Source: a virus. From it: a DNA stretch of 31,998 bases. The stretch covers positions 1 through 31,998 of IMG/VR virus record IMGVR_UViG_3300037427_000224, one strand, 5' to 3'. Below are positions 15,886 to 31,998 of this stretch, in pieces. Numbering within the stretch: the first letter of the stretch is position 1; the number at the start of each line of letters is the position of its first letter. A program made the translations under genes and the position numbers. The notes under the pieces are model-generated. The model ran no database searches, had not been told where the DNA came from, and was given only the letters and a program-made list of their open reading frames with translations.

Positions 15886-16689
15886 ATGGCAATATCAAAG
15901 ATAGTAGCAAACTCCGTAGATTTAGACGGAGCTATTACCATTAATGAAAGCAGTAATTCAGTAGACTTTAGAGTTGAAAGTAATGGGAACACGCATCAAC
16001 TTTTTGTTGATGGGAGTGGTGATAACGTAGGTATTGGTACAACCCCAAATGCTGCAGCTTCCTTACACATTAAAGGAACAGGTAATGGTCTGACAAGAGT
16101 AGAACACGCATCTAATGGTGCTTATGTTGATTATAAATATGATGGTCCAGTATCAAGTGGTGATTTGTATTTCACAGCTACTGGTGCTAATGTTATAGAT
16201 ATGTACACAGGTGGCGGCTCTCGTTTAAAGATAGATGGAAGTGGTCATGTCACTATGCCACAGCAAACTTCGTTTTTAGTTAAACCAGATGCTAATCAAG
16301 ATGGTTTATCAATTAATACTTATCATACAGTTCAGTTTGATGAGGAGGTCTTAGACACAAATGCTGATTTTAATACATCAACTTACACATTTACTGCTCC
16401 AGTAACAGGAAAATATCAACTTAATATGAGTGTTTATTTATACAATATTGATAAAGATGCAGACTATATTCTTATATCTATTGACACATCAAATAGGACT
16501 TATTCAGTTATCTTTGACCCCGGAGGATATGCTGCAGATATAAATTATCAGTCTTGGGTTCAAACTGTTGTAGCAGACATGGATGCAAGTGATACAGCAG
16601 TAGTTAAAGTTTATCAGCAAGCTGGAGCGGCACAATCTAATTTAATCGCTGGTAATTATACTTGGTTTAGTGGCTATTTAGTCGCATAA
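15886..16689 (+). CDS. tail fibre or adhesin with C1q-like tip
   Basis: The 267-residue product starts at ATG 15886 after AAAGGAAATAATA. Its N-terminal part (AISKIVANSVDLDGAITINE, then VDFRVESNGNTHQLFVDGSG, GIGTTPNAAASLHIKG) is a short fibre shaft. Residues about 128-267 form a C1q-like jelly roll with TYTFTAPVTGKYQLNMSVYL, YILISIDTSNRTYSVIFD and a final WFSGYLVA. The tip is clearly related to that of the protein at 11831-12778, and its shaft shares DFRVESNG with the fibre at 13103-14968. This suggests modular exchange between neighbouring fibres. Confidence 0.8.
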   Translation: MAISKIVANSVDLDGAITINESSNSVDFRVESNGNTHQLFVDGSGDNVGIGTTPNAAASLHIKGTGNGLTRVEHASNGAYVDYKYDGPVSSGDLYFTATGANVIDMYTGGGSRLKIDGSGHVTMPQQTSFLVKPDANQDGLSINTYHTVQFDEEVLDTNADFNTSTYTFTAPVTGKYQLNMSVYLYNIDKDADYILISIDTSNRTYSVIFDPGGYAADINYQSWVQTVVADMDASDTAVVKVYQQAGAAQSNLIAGNYTWFSGYLVA

Positions 16690-17501: not shown

Positions 17502-18839
17502 ATGGCAAGTACATATTCAAATATAGGCATAGAGCTTCAAGGAACAGGGGAAAACGCTAATACTTGGGGAACGAAAACAAACACAAACTTTGAAATTATT
17601 GATGAACGGCTTTCTGAAATTCACACATTAACAAATACAAGTAGTTTTACTCTGTCAGCCCCTGCACAAGGGACAAAAACTCAGGAAGAAAGATATGCTA
17701 CATTAAAATTTACAGGTTCGGCTTCTGGAGACGTTACAGTAACCTTGCCAGCCAAAAAGTTTGTATACAATGTTTTAAACTATGGCTCAGATGGAACTGG
17801 GATTGGTCATAATCTTATATTTAGAGGACCTAATGCTGCAACAGTGACAGCCACAGTTAAGAATGGAAAATCGGGAAGTATACATTCTGACGGGGACGAA
17901 AGTGTATATCTACTATCCAATACTGGATCGGAAGCATTTAATACCGATATAACAGCCAAAACAAGCGATGGGGCTTTGCTAAAGCTTCAGACATCTCACA
18001 CCACAATAGCAGCAGATGACGTTTTAGGTTCAGTACAATTTAACGCTCCAGATGAAACCAATGGGGCAGACGGTGATGCAAGGTTAATTGGCGCTGAAGT
18101 AGCAGCCGTTGCCGAAGGTACTTTTAGTGACACAAGCAACGCAACAAAGCTAAGTTTTAAAACTGGTTCAAGTGAAGCAGCAACAGAGAAAATGAAATTA
18201 AGCAGTGCAGGTGTTCTTTCTATTCCAGCAGACGGTTCGGGGACTTCATCAAACTCAATTGTGCTGGGCGCTGATTCTGATATGCAAATATTCCACGACG
18301 GTTCAAATTCCTATGTTCAAGAAACTGGAACTGGTTTTTTAGCTTTAAAGGGCAGTTCAGTGCATTTGCAGTCTTCTGGTGGAGAAACTATGTTAAATGC
18401 AGAAACTGATGGGGCTGTTTCTTTGTATTACGATAATTCAGCAAAAATAGCTACAGCTTCTGGTGGGGCTACTATAACTGGTGCGATCACAGCTACTGGT
18501 AATATTACTGCTTTTTTCTCAGATGAAAGATTAAAAGACATTCACGGAAGCATTGAAAATGCTTTAGAAAAAGTATGTCAGCTTGATGGCTTTATATACA
18601 GTCCTAATGATGATGCTGAAAGTTTGGGATATAAGAAAACGGATAGAATAGCAGGTATATCAGCACAGCAATGCGAAAAGGTTCTTCCAGAAGCTGTTGT
18701 TGAAGCTCCAATAAGTTCTTATTTTAAAGCAGTGCAGTATGACCAGTTAATACCTTTATTGATTAACTCTATTAAAGAACTTAAAGCAGAATTAGACAAT
18801 CATAAGAAAGGATGTCAGTGCAATGGCTCTAACGAGTAG
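17502..18839 (+). CDS. tail fibre with C-terminal S74 intramolecular chaperone
   Basis: The 445-residue product starts at ATG 17502, three bases past the previous stop. It begins STYSNIGIELQGTGENANTW (residues 2-21), a typical attachment module, and has a shaft with spacer strands (LGADSDMQIFHDGSNSYVQE, then ATGGAT-type repeats). Residues about 339-445 are a peptidase S74 domain: FFSDERLKDIHGSIENALEK, then IAGISAQQCEKVLPEAV and YDQLIPLLINSIKELKAELD. Ser340 and Lys345 fit the Ser-Lys dyad of self-cleaving S74 chaperones, which trim themselves off after trimer assembly. A short Cys-containing tail ends it. The last 17 bases overlap the next gene. Confidence 0.88.
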   Translation: MASTYSNIGIELQGTGENANTWGTKTNTNFEIIDERLSEIHTLTNTSSFTLSAPAQGTKTQEERYATLKFTGSASGDVTVTLPAKKFVYNVLNYGSDGTGIGHNLIFRGPNAATVTATVKNGKSGSIHSDGDESVYLLSNTGSEAFNTDITAKTSDGALLKLQTSHTTIAADDVLGSVQFNAPDETNGADGDARLIGAEVAAVAEGTFSDTSNATKLSFKTGSSEAATEKMKLSSAGVLSIPADGSGTSSNSIVLGADSDMQIFHDGSNSYVQETGTGFLALKGSSVHLQSSGGETMLNAETDGAVSLYYDNSAKIATASGGATITGAITATGNITAFFSDERLKDIHGSIENALEKVCQLDGFIYSPNDDAESLGYKKTDRIAGISAQQCEKVLPEAVVEAPISSYFKAVQYDQLIPLLINSIKELKAELDNHKKGCQCNGSNE

Positions 18840-26589: not shown

Positions 26590-29500
26590 ATGCAGATATA
26601 CCTAGAAGAATTCGGCAAAACAATTGGTTTTCCAGATGATTTTTCTCAAGACCAAATAAAAAACGCTATTGAGTCTAACATTATTCCTCAATTAAGGCGT
26701 GAAGAAGAAGAGAAGCGCCAAGAAGAAATACAAAAAAAACGTGATGAGGTTGGCATTTTGGGTGCTTTGCCTCGTGGGTTAAGCCGTGGTGTAACGCAAA
26801 CAGCAGGTTTAATTGGAGACGTTCTTCCAGCTATGGTTGGACAAGCTATAGGTGCAGACGAATACCGTGACAAACAAATGCAAGAGTATTTGGACAGAAT
26901 GCAAAAGATGGAAGAGGAAAGACCCTCTCTTGTTCCTTCGTACAAAGACATTGACAGCATTGGTGACGTTGCTAAATACGGACTTGAAACAGTTGGACAA
27001 TTTATACCGTCTGTTGCAACATCCATAGCTGGTGGTGGCATAGGTGGGTTTATTGGGCAGTCCGTAGCAAAAAAAGGAGCGCAGAAGCTTGCAGGCGAAG
27101 CCGCTGAAAGGTTTGCAAAGAAAGCCGTTACGACTGGTCAGATCGGGGGCGCATTTGCTGGATCAGGGATTCAGACAATACCAGAAGCTTACGCAACGCT
27201 TGAAGAGGAGACAGGCGATCCAAAACTTGGTACATCTCTTATCGTTGGTGGTGTAAACGCCGCTCTAGACAGTATACTCCCAGCGGCATTCTTGACACGG
27301 TTAGGCAAAGTAGGACGAGAAGAAGTTTCTAAAAACATTGTTGCCAAGACATTGCAGAATTTAGGCTCAACCACAGCAAAAACAAGAAAAGGTGCTATTG
27401 CAAAAGGCGCACTTAAGAGTGGCGTTGTTGAGGGTTTAACAGAAGGTACACAGGAATTTAATCAATTAACGGCAGCAAGAATTTTAGATGAAAACCCAGA
27501 GTTCTGGGAAAGTGGAGACTTTGAAAGAATTTTAGACGCTTCAATAAGAGGGGCTGTTGGTGGTAAAGCGTTTGGCGCTTTATCAGGTGCTATGTCTCAA
27601 ACAGAAGAACAAAGAACAAAGCGTGAACAAGCTATTAAAGACAACGAATTACAAACTGCTTTAGATATTATAAAAAAAGGAGTTAATGTTGAACCAATTT
27701 TACAAATAGAGCTTGGGCTAGAAACTGGAGAAAAAGGATCTCCGTTAAAATCTCCATCAACAATAATAAAAGAACTTAAACAAAACAAGGCTTTACCAAA
27801 GCCGATAGCAAATATTTTAAACAATAAATCTTTAACGCCAAAAGAAAGAATAGCAAAAGTACAAAGCCTACAAACTAAGCTAAAAGAACAGCTAAATACT
27901 GAAACAAAGTTTGACAAAGAACAAGAAAAAACAAACAAAGAGTTTAATGTAGAAGTCAATAAAAAAGAAATACGTTTAGAAGACGAAAGACCAACAGATT
28001 ATCGTGTTGTTAACAACAGGGGCAAGAGCCAAAACGTCCCACCTTTTGCTGATTTAGAAGAAGCTAAAGCTTACGTTCAAAGTCAAGAAAAGCCAGAAAA
28101 ATTAAAATTGCAAAATCAATTAGGCGATGAGGTATATTCTGGTATAGCCACAAAAGACCTTCCCCCACCCCCTCTTTCAGAAAAAGAAACTGATACAAAG
28201 ACGATACTGGAAAACAGAAAAAAGATTTTACTGGGTCAGCCTATTGGCAAGAAAGTTGTTCTGTCTTCAAAAAATGCTCAACGTTTGCTCCTGACTGGTG
28301 AATTAAAAGAGTCAAGCTACTACGAAGCGTCGGAACGGGGTGCAGGGATAGAGAAGAAGTTTGACGATGAGGTAGAGGACGTTGGTGCAGAATCTCGTGT
28401 AATATCGAAAGAAAGTACAGAATATATTAATGCTGTTGAAACTATTAACAAGAGAATAGAATCAATAGAAGAGCAAGGCGAACAAGGTAAAAAGACTGCT
28501 GTTGCTTTAAGAGAAATTTTGTCTGACAACGAAAGAACAGTTGGCGAACTGGTAACAGCCTTTGAAGTTGCTGACATAATGACGCAAATTTTGCCAGAAG
28601 CAACGGGTCATGCCGTAAAATTTGTAGATGCTATTAAAAAGGGACAATTAAATGGAACAAGAGATCCTCATGCAAAACTAATTTCTCTTGCCATGAAATC
28701 AGGACGGATAATAGACGGCAAACCACAGTTAGTTTTTGATGAAAGCATATTAAAAGAAACAGCCAGTCACGAAGCGTTCCACGTTCTTCAAGATTACTTT
28801 ATACAGTATGACCCACAAGCTAAGAAGATATTAGACCAAGAGTTTGGTGCAACAGAAAAAGTTAACAAAAAAATAGATTACAAAAACACAAAAACAGCAA
28901 AGTGGTTAAAAAGAGCAAACAGAAAACTGCACGATGATTTGTTGGCAATGAGTGCTACAAATGAAGGAATTACAGGAAGAGAAATCCAAGCTTATGCATT
29001 TAGTGCTTACAACCAAGCAAGACGGGAAGGCAAAACGCCTGTTATGGCTGGAGGGCTTGCAAGGTACTTTAGGTTTGTTTCTAACTTTTTAGAACGGTTA
29101 GGTAATTACACAAGTGGTCTTGGATTTGCAAATGCCCAAGATGTTTTTGAAGCCGTGTCATCGGGAACTGCTGCCAAGAAATTTAACAACCGTTCTTTAT
29201 CAGAACAAGATGCTGACCCGTCACAAGCTCCCGATATAGAACAATCATCACGCTCTTTGAACACAAGAGAATACTTAACATCCCAAGACGGTCAGCCATA
29301 CGCAACGGATACAAGACGTTCACAAAAGTTAATTCCGATTAATGACGGAAGCCCTATTATTGCAAAAGTGCAATTAAGGAAAAATGAAAAGAAACGAAAC
29401 GTTGTTCTTCCACAGGGAGAAAGGAAGTGGGACACAGTAAGACAGCAGTTTACAGGATACGGAGCAGACTATGTGGCTCATCCGAGTAATATAAATGAAA

Positions 29501-31998
29501 TTAGAATGAACACTCCTCATCGTGAAGTAATGCCATTTATCCAAGACGTTGTTACCAGTGGTAAAAAAGTTGAGCTTGCTGATGGTCGAGTGCAATATAA
29601 TTACAAACCCGAAAGTTATAAACAAACTGGGGTTGTTATTTTAGAAAAAGACAGAAATGAAAATTTGCAAGTTTCTCGTGCTTTTTCGGTTGATGTTAAA
29701 AAAATTAAATTAAAACGTTCTCAAGAATTAGCAAAAGAAGCTGAACAGCGAAGGTTAAGAGAAGTCCCAGAAAGGGCAACCCAAGAGGATATTGATGCCT
29801 ATAGAAGGGGCAGGGGTACTGAAGCATCTGCAAGAGGTGTTGCTGTTAACGCAGGGCAATCTGTCAGTACAAGATTCCCCACAGTTAAATCAAAAGATGG
29901 CGATCCTTTAACTGAATTTTTAAAAATTGACTCTACTTCTATTAGAGAAACTCCAGAAGCACTGGCTAAAGCATCTCGGCAAATCAAAGAATACAACATT
30001 TTACGAACTGATGAAACAAAAGGTCTTTCAGATAATCAAGTTGTAGATTTATACATTGAAAGAATGTCTGATAATTTGTTGTTTATATATGATGGCGTTC
30101 CAGAAGGCATAAGAAACAGATCAAAACTGTGGTATGTTGGGGCTAATAGAATAGCTAATAAATTTGCAGAAAAGCATGGGATTACTGTTGAACAAGCTTC
30201 TGGGATTTTAGCCGCACTCAGCCCTCAAAAAGATTGGTTTCAAAACGCATCTCTTGGTGAAAGACTTATTGATATAATGTCTACAAAACAAGACACTCAA
30301 TTTACACCAGAAATGATGAAAACTGCTAAAAGAATTTTTGGAAAAGAAAAATACAAAAAAGCACTAGACTTTATTAGCAATCCACAAAGAAACGACACAT
30401 CTTTGGGTAGTCTTGAATTGTATCACCCACACTATAAATCAATGTGGTTGAGAATATATGACGAAACTTACAATGATCGGGGTCACAGAATTGTTTCTCC
30501 AGAAGGTGAATTTTTAGATTTTACTAGGAAGAACCCAAAAAGAAATCAAAACAGAGGTGACAAAAAAGGAACTGGTTGGGGAAGTTTAACAGAAATATCA
30601 AAAGCAATTACAATTTTTGAAGACTCAAGCATTGACACTATTTCAAAAGAAATGGGTAAGATGCACAAAATAAGAAGTTTTTTTAACAATATAGTAAACC
30701 CGTTTGATACAAATGGTTCTGCTACTATTGATACTCACGCAGTAGCTGCGGCTTTTCTTCAACCTCTTGCAGGAAAATCTATTCCAGTTGGGCATAATTT
30801 TGGGGTAATGCCAATAAAAGGAGTGGAGGGATCTGCTTCAGTTGGTAAGTTTGGTACAAGAGGATATTATGGTTTAAACTATGAAGCATACAGACTGGCT
30901 GCTGAGAGAAGGGGAGTTTTGCCAAGGGAAATGCAATCCATAACATGGGAAGCAGTAAGAGGTTTGTTCCCAGCAGAATTTAAAACAGCAGAAAACGTTA
31001 AAAACATAGAAGAAATATGGAATAGATTTAAAAAAGATGATATAACATTAGATGAAGCTAGGCAGGAGGTAGTTAATTATGCCAACAAAAGAACCAAGGG
31101 AGAAGGGTTTGGTACACCAGATTGGGCAAGACCCGACACTGGAATGGATGAAATTCGAGGGGATACCACTTACGAGGAAAAACTATCTGGAGTTAGCGTA
31201 CCCAGAGGGAGTAGAGATGACACCCGAACTGGAGGAACAGTTACCAAAGGAACTACAGCTAGACCAGCAGTAGACGATGAATACGAAGCATCATCTCGTG
31301 GGGTTATGCTATCAGACGATGAATTTAGAAATGCCACATTTAAAAAAGTTGTAAAGGGCAATTTCCAAGATTCGGGATTTACTGGTAAAGGAAAGCTTTT
31401 AGCAAACAGAAATCTTACACGAGGAACGCAAGTTACACTTAGACCAAATTTAAACGGTTGGATTAAAGAAGAAGGCGCACCAATACTTACACAGACTGTA
31501 CATGACAGGTCAAAGCGAAAGTATGGAGAAGTTTTGGGTTATGACCACACTGTCGCCGCAGAAGGAAAGGTAGATCTTGACGTTAATCAAAAGGCAAGGG
31601 CGAAAATAGCATTAGGAGAAGAGAATAAATTTCCAATGGCTGGTGCTATTGGTGGTTACGCTCCATTATCTTTAGAAGAGTCTCAAAACATAATAAGTAA
31701 TCCAGATCACACGTTAAAGTTTAACCCAAGAGGGCATCATTTATTTGTCGATCAAAATGGATTTGCCGTCAAATCATACAATGGGACAGGGGTGCATCAA
31801 GGGACAAACGTTTTTGTCAAAGGTGACATAGAATACTGGAAGCAATTGGAAGCCCCTCAACAGGAAAGAGGCGTTGAAACAGATGTAAAATATTTTGATG
31901 CACCTGATTATGAAGCTTCTGCAAGAGGGTATGCTTCATCATGGGACGAAGTAATTACTTCAAAAGACGACAGCATTATAAACAACTTTTTGACTGGT
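26590..31998 (+). CDS. giant polyvalent-type internal protein (C-terminus beyond window)
   Basis: ATG 26590 (AAGG at 26577-26580) opens a frame with no stop before the window end, so at least 1803 residues. Regions: 1-50 charged helix; about 52-245 Gly/Ala-rich hydrophobic stretches (GALPRGLSRGVTQTAGLIGD, IPSVATSIAGGGIGGFIGQS) that may insert in membranes; 330-560 charged linker helices; about 700-830 a metallopeptidase-like region with HEAFH at 727-731 and a candidate third ligand E798 in EIQAYAFSAYNQ; 1175-1495 a helical domain with WYVGANRIANKFAE, ILAALSPQKDW and TIDTHA (1379-1384); 1597-1760 a beta domain with TLRPNLNGW and HHLFVDQNGFAVKS. Four EASxRG tags lie at about 579, 1078, 1566 and 1775. 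This resembles phage polyvalent proteins that are injected with the DNA. A nested gene lies in its linker at 31079-31273. Confidence 0.8.
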   Translation, partial: MQIYLEEFGKTIGFPDDFSQDQIKNAIESNIIPQLRREEEEKRQEEIQKKRDEVGILGALPRGLSRGVTQTAGLIGDVLPAMVGQAIGADEYRDKQMQEYLDRMQKMEEERPSLVPSYKDIDSIGDVAKYGLETVGQFIPSVATSIAGGGIGGFIGQSVAKKGAQKLAGEAAERFAKKAVTTGQIGGAFAGSGIQTIPEAYATLEEETGDPKLGTSLIVGGVNAALDSILPAAFLTRLGKVGREEVSKNIVAKTLQNLGSTTAKTRKGAIAKGALKSGVVEGLTEGTQEFNQLTAARILDENPEFWESGDFERILDASIRGAVGGKAFGALSGAMSQTEEQRTKREQAIKDNELQTALDIIKKGVNVEPILQIELGLETGEKGSPLKSPSTIIKELKQNKALPKPIANILNNKSLTPKERIAKVQSLQTKLKEQLNTETKFDKEQEKTNKEFNVEVNKKEIRLEDERPTDYRVVNNRGKSQNVPPFADLEEAKAYVQSQEKPEKLKLQNQLGDEVYSGIATKDLPPPPLSEKETDTKTILENRKKILLGQPIGKKVVLSSKNAQRLLLTGELKESSYYEASERGAGIEKKFDDEVEDVGAESRVISKESTEYINAVETINKRIESIEEQGEQGKKTAVALREILSDNERTVGELVTAFEVADIMTQILPEATGHAVKFVDAIKKGQLNGTRDPHAKLISLAMKSGRIIDGKPQLVFDESILKETASHEAFHVLQDYFIQYDPQAKKILDQEFGATEKVNKKIDYKNTKTAKWLKRANRKLHDDLLAMSATNEGITGREIQAYAFSAYNQARREGKTPVMAGGLARYFRFVSNFLERLGNYTSGLGFANAQDVFEAVSSGTAAKKFNNRSLSEQDADPSQAPDIEQSSRSLNTREYLTSQDGQPYATDTRRSQKLIPINDGSPIIAKVQLRKNEKKRNVVLPQGERKWDTVRQQFTGYGADYVAHPSNINEIRMNTPHREVMPFIQDVVTSGKKVELADGRVQYNYKPESYKQTGVVILEKDRNENLQVSRAFSVDVKKIKLKRSQELAKEAEQRRLREVPERATQEDIDAYRRGRGTEASARGVAVNAGQSVSTRFPTVKSKDGDPLTEFLKIDSTSIRETPEALAKASRQIKEYNILRTDETKGLSDNQVVDLYIERMSDNLLFIYDGVPEGIRNRSKLWYVGANRIANKFAEKHGITVEQASGILAALSPQKDWFQNASLGERLIDIMSTKQDTQFTPEMMKTAKRIFGKEKYKKALDFISNPQRNDTSLGSLELYHPHYKSMWLRIYDETYNDRGHRIVSPEGEFLDFTRKNPKRNQNRGDKKGTGWGSLTEISKAITIFEDSSIDTISKEMGKMHKIRSFFNNIVNPFDTNGSATIDTHAVAAAFLQPLAGKSIPVGHNFGVMPIKGVEGSASVGKFGTRGYYGLNYEAYRLAAERRGVLPREMQSITWEAVRGLFPAEFKTAENVKNIEEIWNRFKKDDITLDEARQEVVNYANKRTKGEGFGTPDWARPDTGMDEIRGDTTYEEKLSGVSVPRGSRDDTRTGGTVTKGTTARPAVDDEYEASSRGVMLSDDEFRNATFKKVVKGNFQDSGFTGKGKLLANRNLTRGTQVTLRPNLNGWIKEEGAPILTQTVHDRSKRKYGEVLGYDHTVAAEGKVDLDVNQKARAKIALGEENKFPMAGAIGGYAPLSLEESQNIISNPDHTLKFNPRGHHLFVDQNGFAVKSYNGTGVHQGTNVFVKGDIEYWKQLEAPQQERGVETDVKYFDAPDYEASARGYASSWDEVITSKDDSIINNFLTG
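31064..31070 (+). promoter_or_regulatory. perfect ribosome binding site for nested gene
   Basis: AGGAGGT lies eight bases before ATG 31079 inside the giant frame, where it encodes ordinary residues (QEVV). It is a full-length match to the anti-Shine-Dalgarno sequence, stronger than the site of almost any other gene in the window. Confidence 0.7.
31079..31273 (+). CDS. nested 64-residue gene in the +1 frame of the giant gene
   Basis: This complete gene is embedded in the giant coding region, starting at ATG 31079 behind AGGAGGT and ending at TAG 31271-31273. Its product is a soluble acidic helical protein with PTLEWMKFEGIPLTRKNYLE in the centre and TPELEEQLPKEL near the end. 'EGIPLTR.NYL.LAY......E.E..LP' is a pattern I recall from small phage proteins encoded beside large polyvalent genes. 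By hand count this stretch is about 49% GC (95 of 195), against about 27-38% in 60-base blocks on each side. In the giant frame the same bases encode a Gly/Thr/Arg-rich linker. Dual coding is likely; function is unknown. Confidence 0.7.
   Translation: MPTKEPREKGLVHQIGQDPTLEWMKFEGIPLTRKNYLELAYPEGVEMTPELEEQLPKELQLDQQ

Follow-up and report, generated by a model that had tools for sequence, protein, structure and literature searches.

Recurrent peptide tags between the modules of zincin-bearing polyvalent phage proteins as candidate proteolytic processing sites

A short peptide tag, which in the phage protein studied here reads EASxRG, recurs between the modules of giant polyvalent proteins. By comparing these proteins computationally we could show that modules are exchanged from tag to tag, that the tags are associated with a zincin metallopeptidase in the same polypeptide, that the tags of one protein share a dialect and that modules bear the dialect of the recipient protein. 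Judging from these sequence comparisons we consider it probable that the tags are proteolytic processing sites which are read by the embedded zincin and at which the polyprotein would be split into its modules.

The window, by which we mean the whole stretch of DNA that was analysed, comprises 31,998 nt of the IMG/VR virus record IMGVR_UViG_3300037427_000224 (positions 1-31,998). The giant ORF and the parts of its product are the following.

26590..31998, + strand: ORF of the giant polyvalent-type protein, running past the window end (Pfam DUF7178, phrog_6958; LPD38 in the relative L005)
26590..28320, + strand: N-terminal module of virion/ejection type, preceding tag 1 (match to the virion structural family phrog_6958, E 4e-16)
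28321..28341, + strand: tag 1, YEASERG (model pLDDT about 30)
28387..29229, + strand: zincin metallopeptidase module (conserved in three alignments; zincin fold matches)
28768..28782, + strand: HEAFH active-site motif, residues 727-731 (H, E and H invariant in alignments)
29236..29256, + strand: tag 2, degenerate, IEQSSRS (LEESARA in L006), after the zincin
29257..29817, + strand: module between tags 2 and 3 (homologues in L006, L106 and L110)
29818..29838, + strand: tag 3, TEASARG (in linker by model pLDDT)
29839..31281, + strand: DUF7178 module (Pfam; 66% identity to L005, flanking modules 97-99%)
31282..31302, + strand: tag 4, YEASSRG (in linker by model pLDDT)
31303..31908, + strand: exchangeable module between tags 4 and 5 (unrelated cassette in L006; homologue in L106)
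31909..31929, + strand: tag 5, YEASARG (motif match)
31930..31998, + strand: start of the C-terminal LPD38-bearing module, continuing past the window (L005 residues 1796-2677)

The giant protein and its tags

Judged by its sequence, the giant protein belongs to the polyvalent phage proteins as defined by Iyer et al. 2017 (PMC5512222), because a phrog_6958-like N-terminus, a zincin and DUF7178 (all in the window) are combined in one polypeptide with LPD38 (in L005). The complete relative L005 has a protein of 2677 aa, whose best segment in the initial search was 88% identical to the window protein. LPD38 scores above the Pfam cut-off in L005, L006, L008 and L027; in the window protein it would lie beyond the window end. 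The gene two places upstream of the giant ORF has a match to a DNA ejection family, and this neighbour together with the virion-type N-terminus suggests that the giant protein may be packaged into the virion and delivered into the host. The model of the DUF7178 module (29839-31281) has a weak fold match to the DNA glycosylase AGOG (Z 6.4), and part of the region is matched by a gene of a Microbacterium phage which is annotated as 'glycosylase'; the module may be a DNA-glycosylase-like effector. Elsewhere the window encodes a phage GroES-like co-chaperonin (285-662; phrog_3188, E 5.5e-17), a C1q-domain protein (15886-16689) and a tail-fibre protein with a terminal Peptidase_S74 self-cleaving chaperone domain (17502-18839).

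Four copies of EASxRG (tags 1, 3, 4 and 5) had been reported in the preliminary description of the window, and we confirmed them at the positions listed above, all in the same reading frame of the ORF that begins at 26590. A six-frame search gave no EASxRG elsewhere in the window, so that the motif is confined to the giant ORF, and a control with the reversed pattern gave no matches against four for EASxRG. Among the recurring 5-residue patterns of the giant protein EASxRG is the most over-represented one, with a Poisson probability of about 8e-12 which holds for that single pattern. When any 5-residue pattern was allowed, a fourfold occurrence was seen once among 200 shuffled versions of the window protein, and to this extent a chance or compositional recurrence could be argued for. 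The comparative data rule it out, however, and we regard its probability as negligible: L006, which is about 59% identical, has corresponding tags at the same borders, and over 27 giants the general form of the tag described below is strongly enriched over shuffles.

The codons are indeed unlike between the copies, as had been noted (Ala GCG/GCA/GCA/GCT, Arg CGG/AGA/CGT/AGA), which rules out a DNA-level repeat. A degenerate copy, IEQSSRS (29236-29256), had been overlooked; it is located about 159 aa downstream of HEAFH and is the counterpart of LEESARA in L006. The same four EASxRG tags are present in L005, in whose LPD38 region we found no further tag. The pattern [YT]EAS.RG, which had been recommended for searching phage proteins, is real in the window but turned out to be only the spelling which a single lineage uses for a more general tag. 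Since trypsin itself cuts after Arg, semi-tryptic termini at Arg-Gly, which had been suggested as a means of detecting cleavage, would be uninformative.

A general tag and its association with the zincin

A search with the zincin yielded 45 viral loci, and most of the complete giants among them contain at least three copies of a related tag. When the tags are aligned on the Ser, the columns read R/Q/E at position -2, Y/A/F/L/E at -1, S at 0, G/A at +1 and R at +2, with little signal outside. This tally of columns and positions still includes PMYSDRSD at residue 15 of L027, a candidate which we rejected as a tag, as it is an N-terminal motif altered in L110 (PMYADRSD) and L106 (PMYSGISD). The pattern [QER][YFLA]S[AG]R, itself derived from these giants, is found 73 times in the 71.7 kaa of 27 zincin-bearing giants compared to 3.0 times in shuffles (about 24-fold), but not once in the 30 kaa of 13 zincin-less LPD38 giants, and 3 times in 75 kaa of further long ORFs from these loci. 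In most lineages a tag stands behind the zincin at a distance of about +151 to +162 aa from the HExxH.

The circularity in the origin of the pattern is removed only in part by a second sample, which was seeded by LPD38 instead of the zincin. After combining and deduplicating both samples, 21 of 26 giants with the zincin are enriched in tags at p<=0.05 and 13 of 26 at p<=0.01, compared to 1 of 23 giants without it at either threshold; the zincin-less controls belong mostly to other lineages, so that the association is in part confounded by shared ancestry. The sole zincin-negative exception, L116, is incomplete at its 5' end and has GEASLR-type tags like the zincin-bearing group formed by L104, L107, L108 and L118. 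No convincing tag emerged when the LPD38 giants without a zincin were searched for recurrent patterns. Profile scans of the genome contigs with the zincin and with the ART domain did not yield relatives, and an LPD38 alignment across all clades was too diverse to serve as a search query.

The zincin lies between tags 1 and 2 and contains the sequence HEAFHVLQD followed by a later invariant Glu. Over 34 sequences H172, E173, H176 and E243 (alignment numbering) are invariant, and the Asp shortly after the HExxH, as in HEAFHVLQD, is nearly so; this Asp is a feature of one widespread phage-type zincin clade (described in PMC5512222). Compared with zincins of the lethal-factor type, PPEP-1, Wss1 and IrrE, the structural model reached Z scores up to 7.8, which is below the firm level of the tool, and its leading structural matches are nearly all HExxH metallopeptidases. 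The zincin region by itself gave no significant family in a Pfam search. Among the tag-bearing zincins we found no residue that cleanly tracks the spelling of the tags. The Glu at residue 723, four before HEAFH, is kept in about 87% of them and is a Gln in L110, L107 and L118; as a specificity determinant it was rejected for being too inconsistent.

The tags could also be cut in trans by another protease, from the phage prohead or from the host, the zincin then being an effector and not the processor. A prohead protease usually has many head proteins as its substrates, whereas the general tag is rare in the remaining long ORFs of the loci and EASxRG is limited to the giant ORF of the window; a head-wide prohead-protease motif was rejected. 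In addition the tags accompany the zincin, and a separate protease gene was not recognised among the tested window proteins, which were a subset of the ORFs. In favour of cutting in trans, the ORF of some tag-bearing ART giants contains no HExxH, and prohead proteases cut the ejection proteins of phage SPN3US at short motifs, C-terminal to AXE (PMC10052503). Taken together we judge a protease acting in trans to be unlikely and favour the embedded zincin as the reader of the tags.

Tags as module borders

The earlier suggestion that the tags mark domain boundaries is supported by tag-to-tag exchange, by the clustering of alignment ends and by the bracketing of ART-PolyVal domains. Between the window protein and L005 the identity is 97-99% in every tag-bounded block save the one between tags 3 and 4 (66%), and between the window protein and L006 it is 23% in the block between tags 4 and 5 and 49-64% in the other blocks. 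The cassette which L006 has between tags 4 and 5 is unrelated and longer, with GNAT and ParB-C-terminal-like matches. For distant pairs of representative giants, the ends of local alignments cluster at tags (4.80 compared to 1.64 at random positions, a value reached in 0 of 2000 trials). In L055, L037 and L063 an ART-PolyVal domain is flanked by tags, one of which precedes it by about 20 aa while the other follows at about 9 aa.

According to the structural models, which are of moderate quality, tags 1, 3 and 4 of the window protein are situated in linkers modelled with low confidence (pLDDT about 25-36), whereas the pLDDT of tag 2 is about 54. The first model shows a short strand of low confidence over tag 2, to which we gave no weight, and the second one, built from 5 sequences, is poor outside residues about 1107-1509 of the window protein. 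A location within folded domains or an absence from close homologues had been named beforehand as speaking against the proposed roles of the tags; we find that the tags are not within folds and are not missing from close homologues.

Placement in linkers is likewise predicted if the tags are docking motifs, that is, if each module carried a peptide binding to a scaffold, to the ejection channel or to a chaperone for packaging or translocation, and the protein stayed uncleaved. Docking would likewise predict one reader per phage and hence dialects. One docking site per module would, however, be superfluous in a single chain. Moreover, neither the zincin-less giants, which are presumably packaged too, nor the N4 vRNAP have tags, and the tag position is fixed on both sides of the zincin. 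We regard docking as quite unlikely, and processing at the tags as more probable.

Tag dialects

The tags are spelled in dialects which differ between the lineages, namely EASxRG, EESERG, RYSGR, QASAR and ESAR, and [QE]ASS[LI] in L110. Tags of the ESAR type are those of the Planktothrix phage Pag-Yong1. The identity of tags within the same protein amounts to 2.24 of 6 columns, compared to 1.25 after permutation (reached in 0 of 2000) and to 1.22 at orthologous borders; since the pairs are not independent of each other, the Wilcoxon value for this comparison is not to be taken as a probability. This effect persists with a lineage-neutral regular expression. The module between tags 4 and 5 is preceded by EASSRG in the window and its homologue in L106 stands behind QYSGRA, in accordance with the dialect of the host protein. 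Homologues of DUF7178 stand behind EASARG, EESERG, QLSARR or QASSL, depending on the host protein, and lack a tag in the zincin-less phage zth2-2 and in Roseobacter phage CRP-738.

L110, whose giant has 2648 aa, carries the tags TQASSL, IQASSL, VEASSI and TQASSL, and its TEASALD is the counterpart of YEASARG in the window; the Arg is gone at every L110 tag. As this change affects all borders alike, it argues for one shared reader of the tags, and the sharing of dialects fits recognition by one factor per phage. L110 would represent a naturally altered specificity of the zincin-tag pair.

If the tags were recombination seams only, i.e., passive marks of the joins between modules, module exchange bounded by tags and alignment ends clustering at tags would be accounted for. 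However, with their different codons the copies do not form a repeat at the DNA level. Homologous modules bearing the recipient's dialect, and the alteration of all tags alike in L110, are unexpected for passive seams, and we hold this explanation to be very improbable.

Proposed mechanism

We propose that EASxRG would be one lineage's form of a short recognition site between the modules of those polyvalent phage virion proteins that carry a zincin, the general form of this site being [E/Q/R][Y/F/A/L/E]-S-x-R placed in a linker. The zincin of the same polypeptide, itself flanked by tags, would cut at or beside the S-x-R core, either while the virion is assembled or once the protein has been ejected into the host. 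This would set free the virion/ejection module of the N-terminus, the zincin, the modules of effector-like character and the C-terminal module with LPD38. For a protein of the L005 type (298.3 kDa), cuts after the Arg would be predicted to yield fragments of about 63.7, 33.8, 22.3, 56.3, 23.0 and 99.1 kDa. We infer here that there is one reader per phage, that this reader is the zincin and that the outcome is cleavage, and likewise the scissile bond and the timing. A recurrent site at the borders, a shared dialect and an associated protease, as expected of a self-processing polyprotein, were all found. Of the three readings offered in the preliminary description (domain boundaries, cleavage sites and docking signals), candidate cleavage sites are the best explanation. 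Where similar motifs occur in ART-PolyVal giants, an HExxH is in some cases absent from the ORF, and therefore another protease or another function is possible in those proteins.

Motifs in ART-PolyVal proteins and significance of the tags

Our survey of ART-PolyVal proteins comprised 79 viral loci, nearly all outside the zincin-tag clade. In these proteins a short motif often follows directly after the ART domain (RYSLR, RFSRS, RKSEDR, LFMP, ILYQ, IYHQ). The trimer at this place is repeated within its own protein in 49 cases, compared to 22 expected. The ILYQ/IYHQ type, which is without the S-x-R core, may be another tag class, and we consider the pattern outside the clade as preliminary. A post-ART motif, often repeated elsewhere in the protein, was observed in L136, L142, L145, L164, L171, L178, L183, L184, L193, L203 and L204, the spellings being RYSLR, RYSVK, RKSEDR/RKSADR, LFMP, ILYQ and SILAQ.

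We put forward tentatively, as a conceivable generalization, that phage polyvalent proteins could generally be polyproteins cut at lineage-private tags which co-evolve with their own protease, and that cassettes would be swapped from tag to tag, the imported ones acquiring the tag of the recipient.

Polyvalent proteins are a widespread phage means of delivering several effectors at infection, and the question addressed here is how one chain of 2000-3500 residues could give rise to separate working enzymes. To this question the tags offer exact candidate sites, predicted fragments and, in the form of the zincin-less giants, natural negative controls, and the dialects, including the one of the Arg-less L110, provide natural specificity variants. 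The tags also provide a rule by which the borders of modules can be located in giant proteins of phages, most of whose effector domains still lack annotation.

Comparison with known systems

The N4 vRNAP is likewise a giant podovirus ejection protein (3500 aa) with an HExxH motif (HELVH), and it was reported to be packaged unprocessed (PMC5512222). It differs in having no tags, and its HELVH region is unmatched by the zincin model built here. When N4 gp50 was searched for kinship with the zincin region, we obtained only a match in unrelated regions of the vRNAP, at the level of chance (E 0.086).

In the prohead-protease processing of ejection proteins described for phage SPN3US gp245 (PMC10052503), the short motif AXE marks cleavage sites in ejected virion proteins, and the prohead system of this phage is similar in that a short motif is found at the cut sites of ejection proteins. 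There the protease is encoded by a separate gene, several head proteins are cut and mostly N-terminal propeptides are removed. Here, in contrast, the SxR-type motif is present in one polyprotein only, between modules and together with an embedded zincin, and cleavage is predicted.

There is also a likeness to the polyvalent proteins with a zincin-like MPTase domain, which like our giants combine an LPD domain and a zincin of the HExxH type with effector-like modules that can be exchanged (PMC5512222). In the literature covered, which included few subscription papers, we found no published cleavage motif in polyvalent proteins, and PMC5512222, as far as searched, describes no recurrent tag or cleavage site between modules. 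Autoprocessing of polyvalent proteins by embedded zincins was proposed, for different reasons, by Iyer et al. 2017 (PMC5512222). The idea of processing by the zincin has thus been known since 2017, whereas the tags, their dialects and the exchange of modules from tag to tag are new here.
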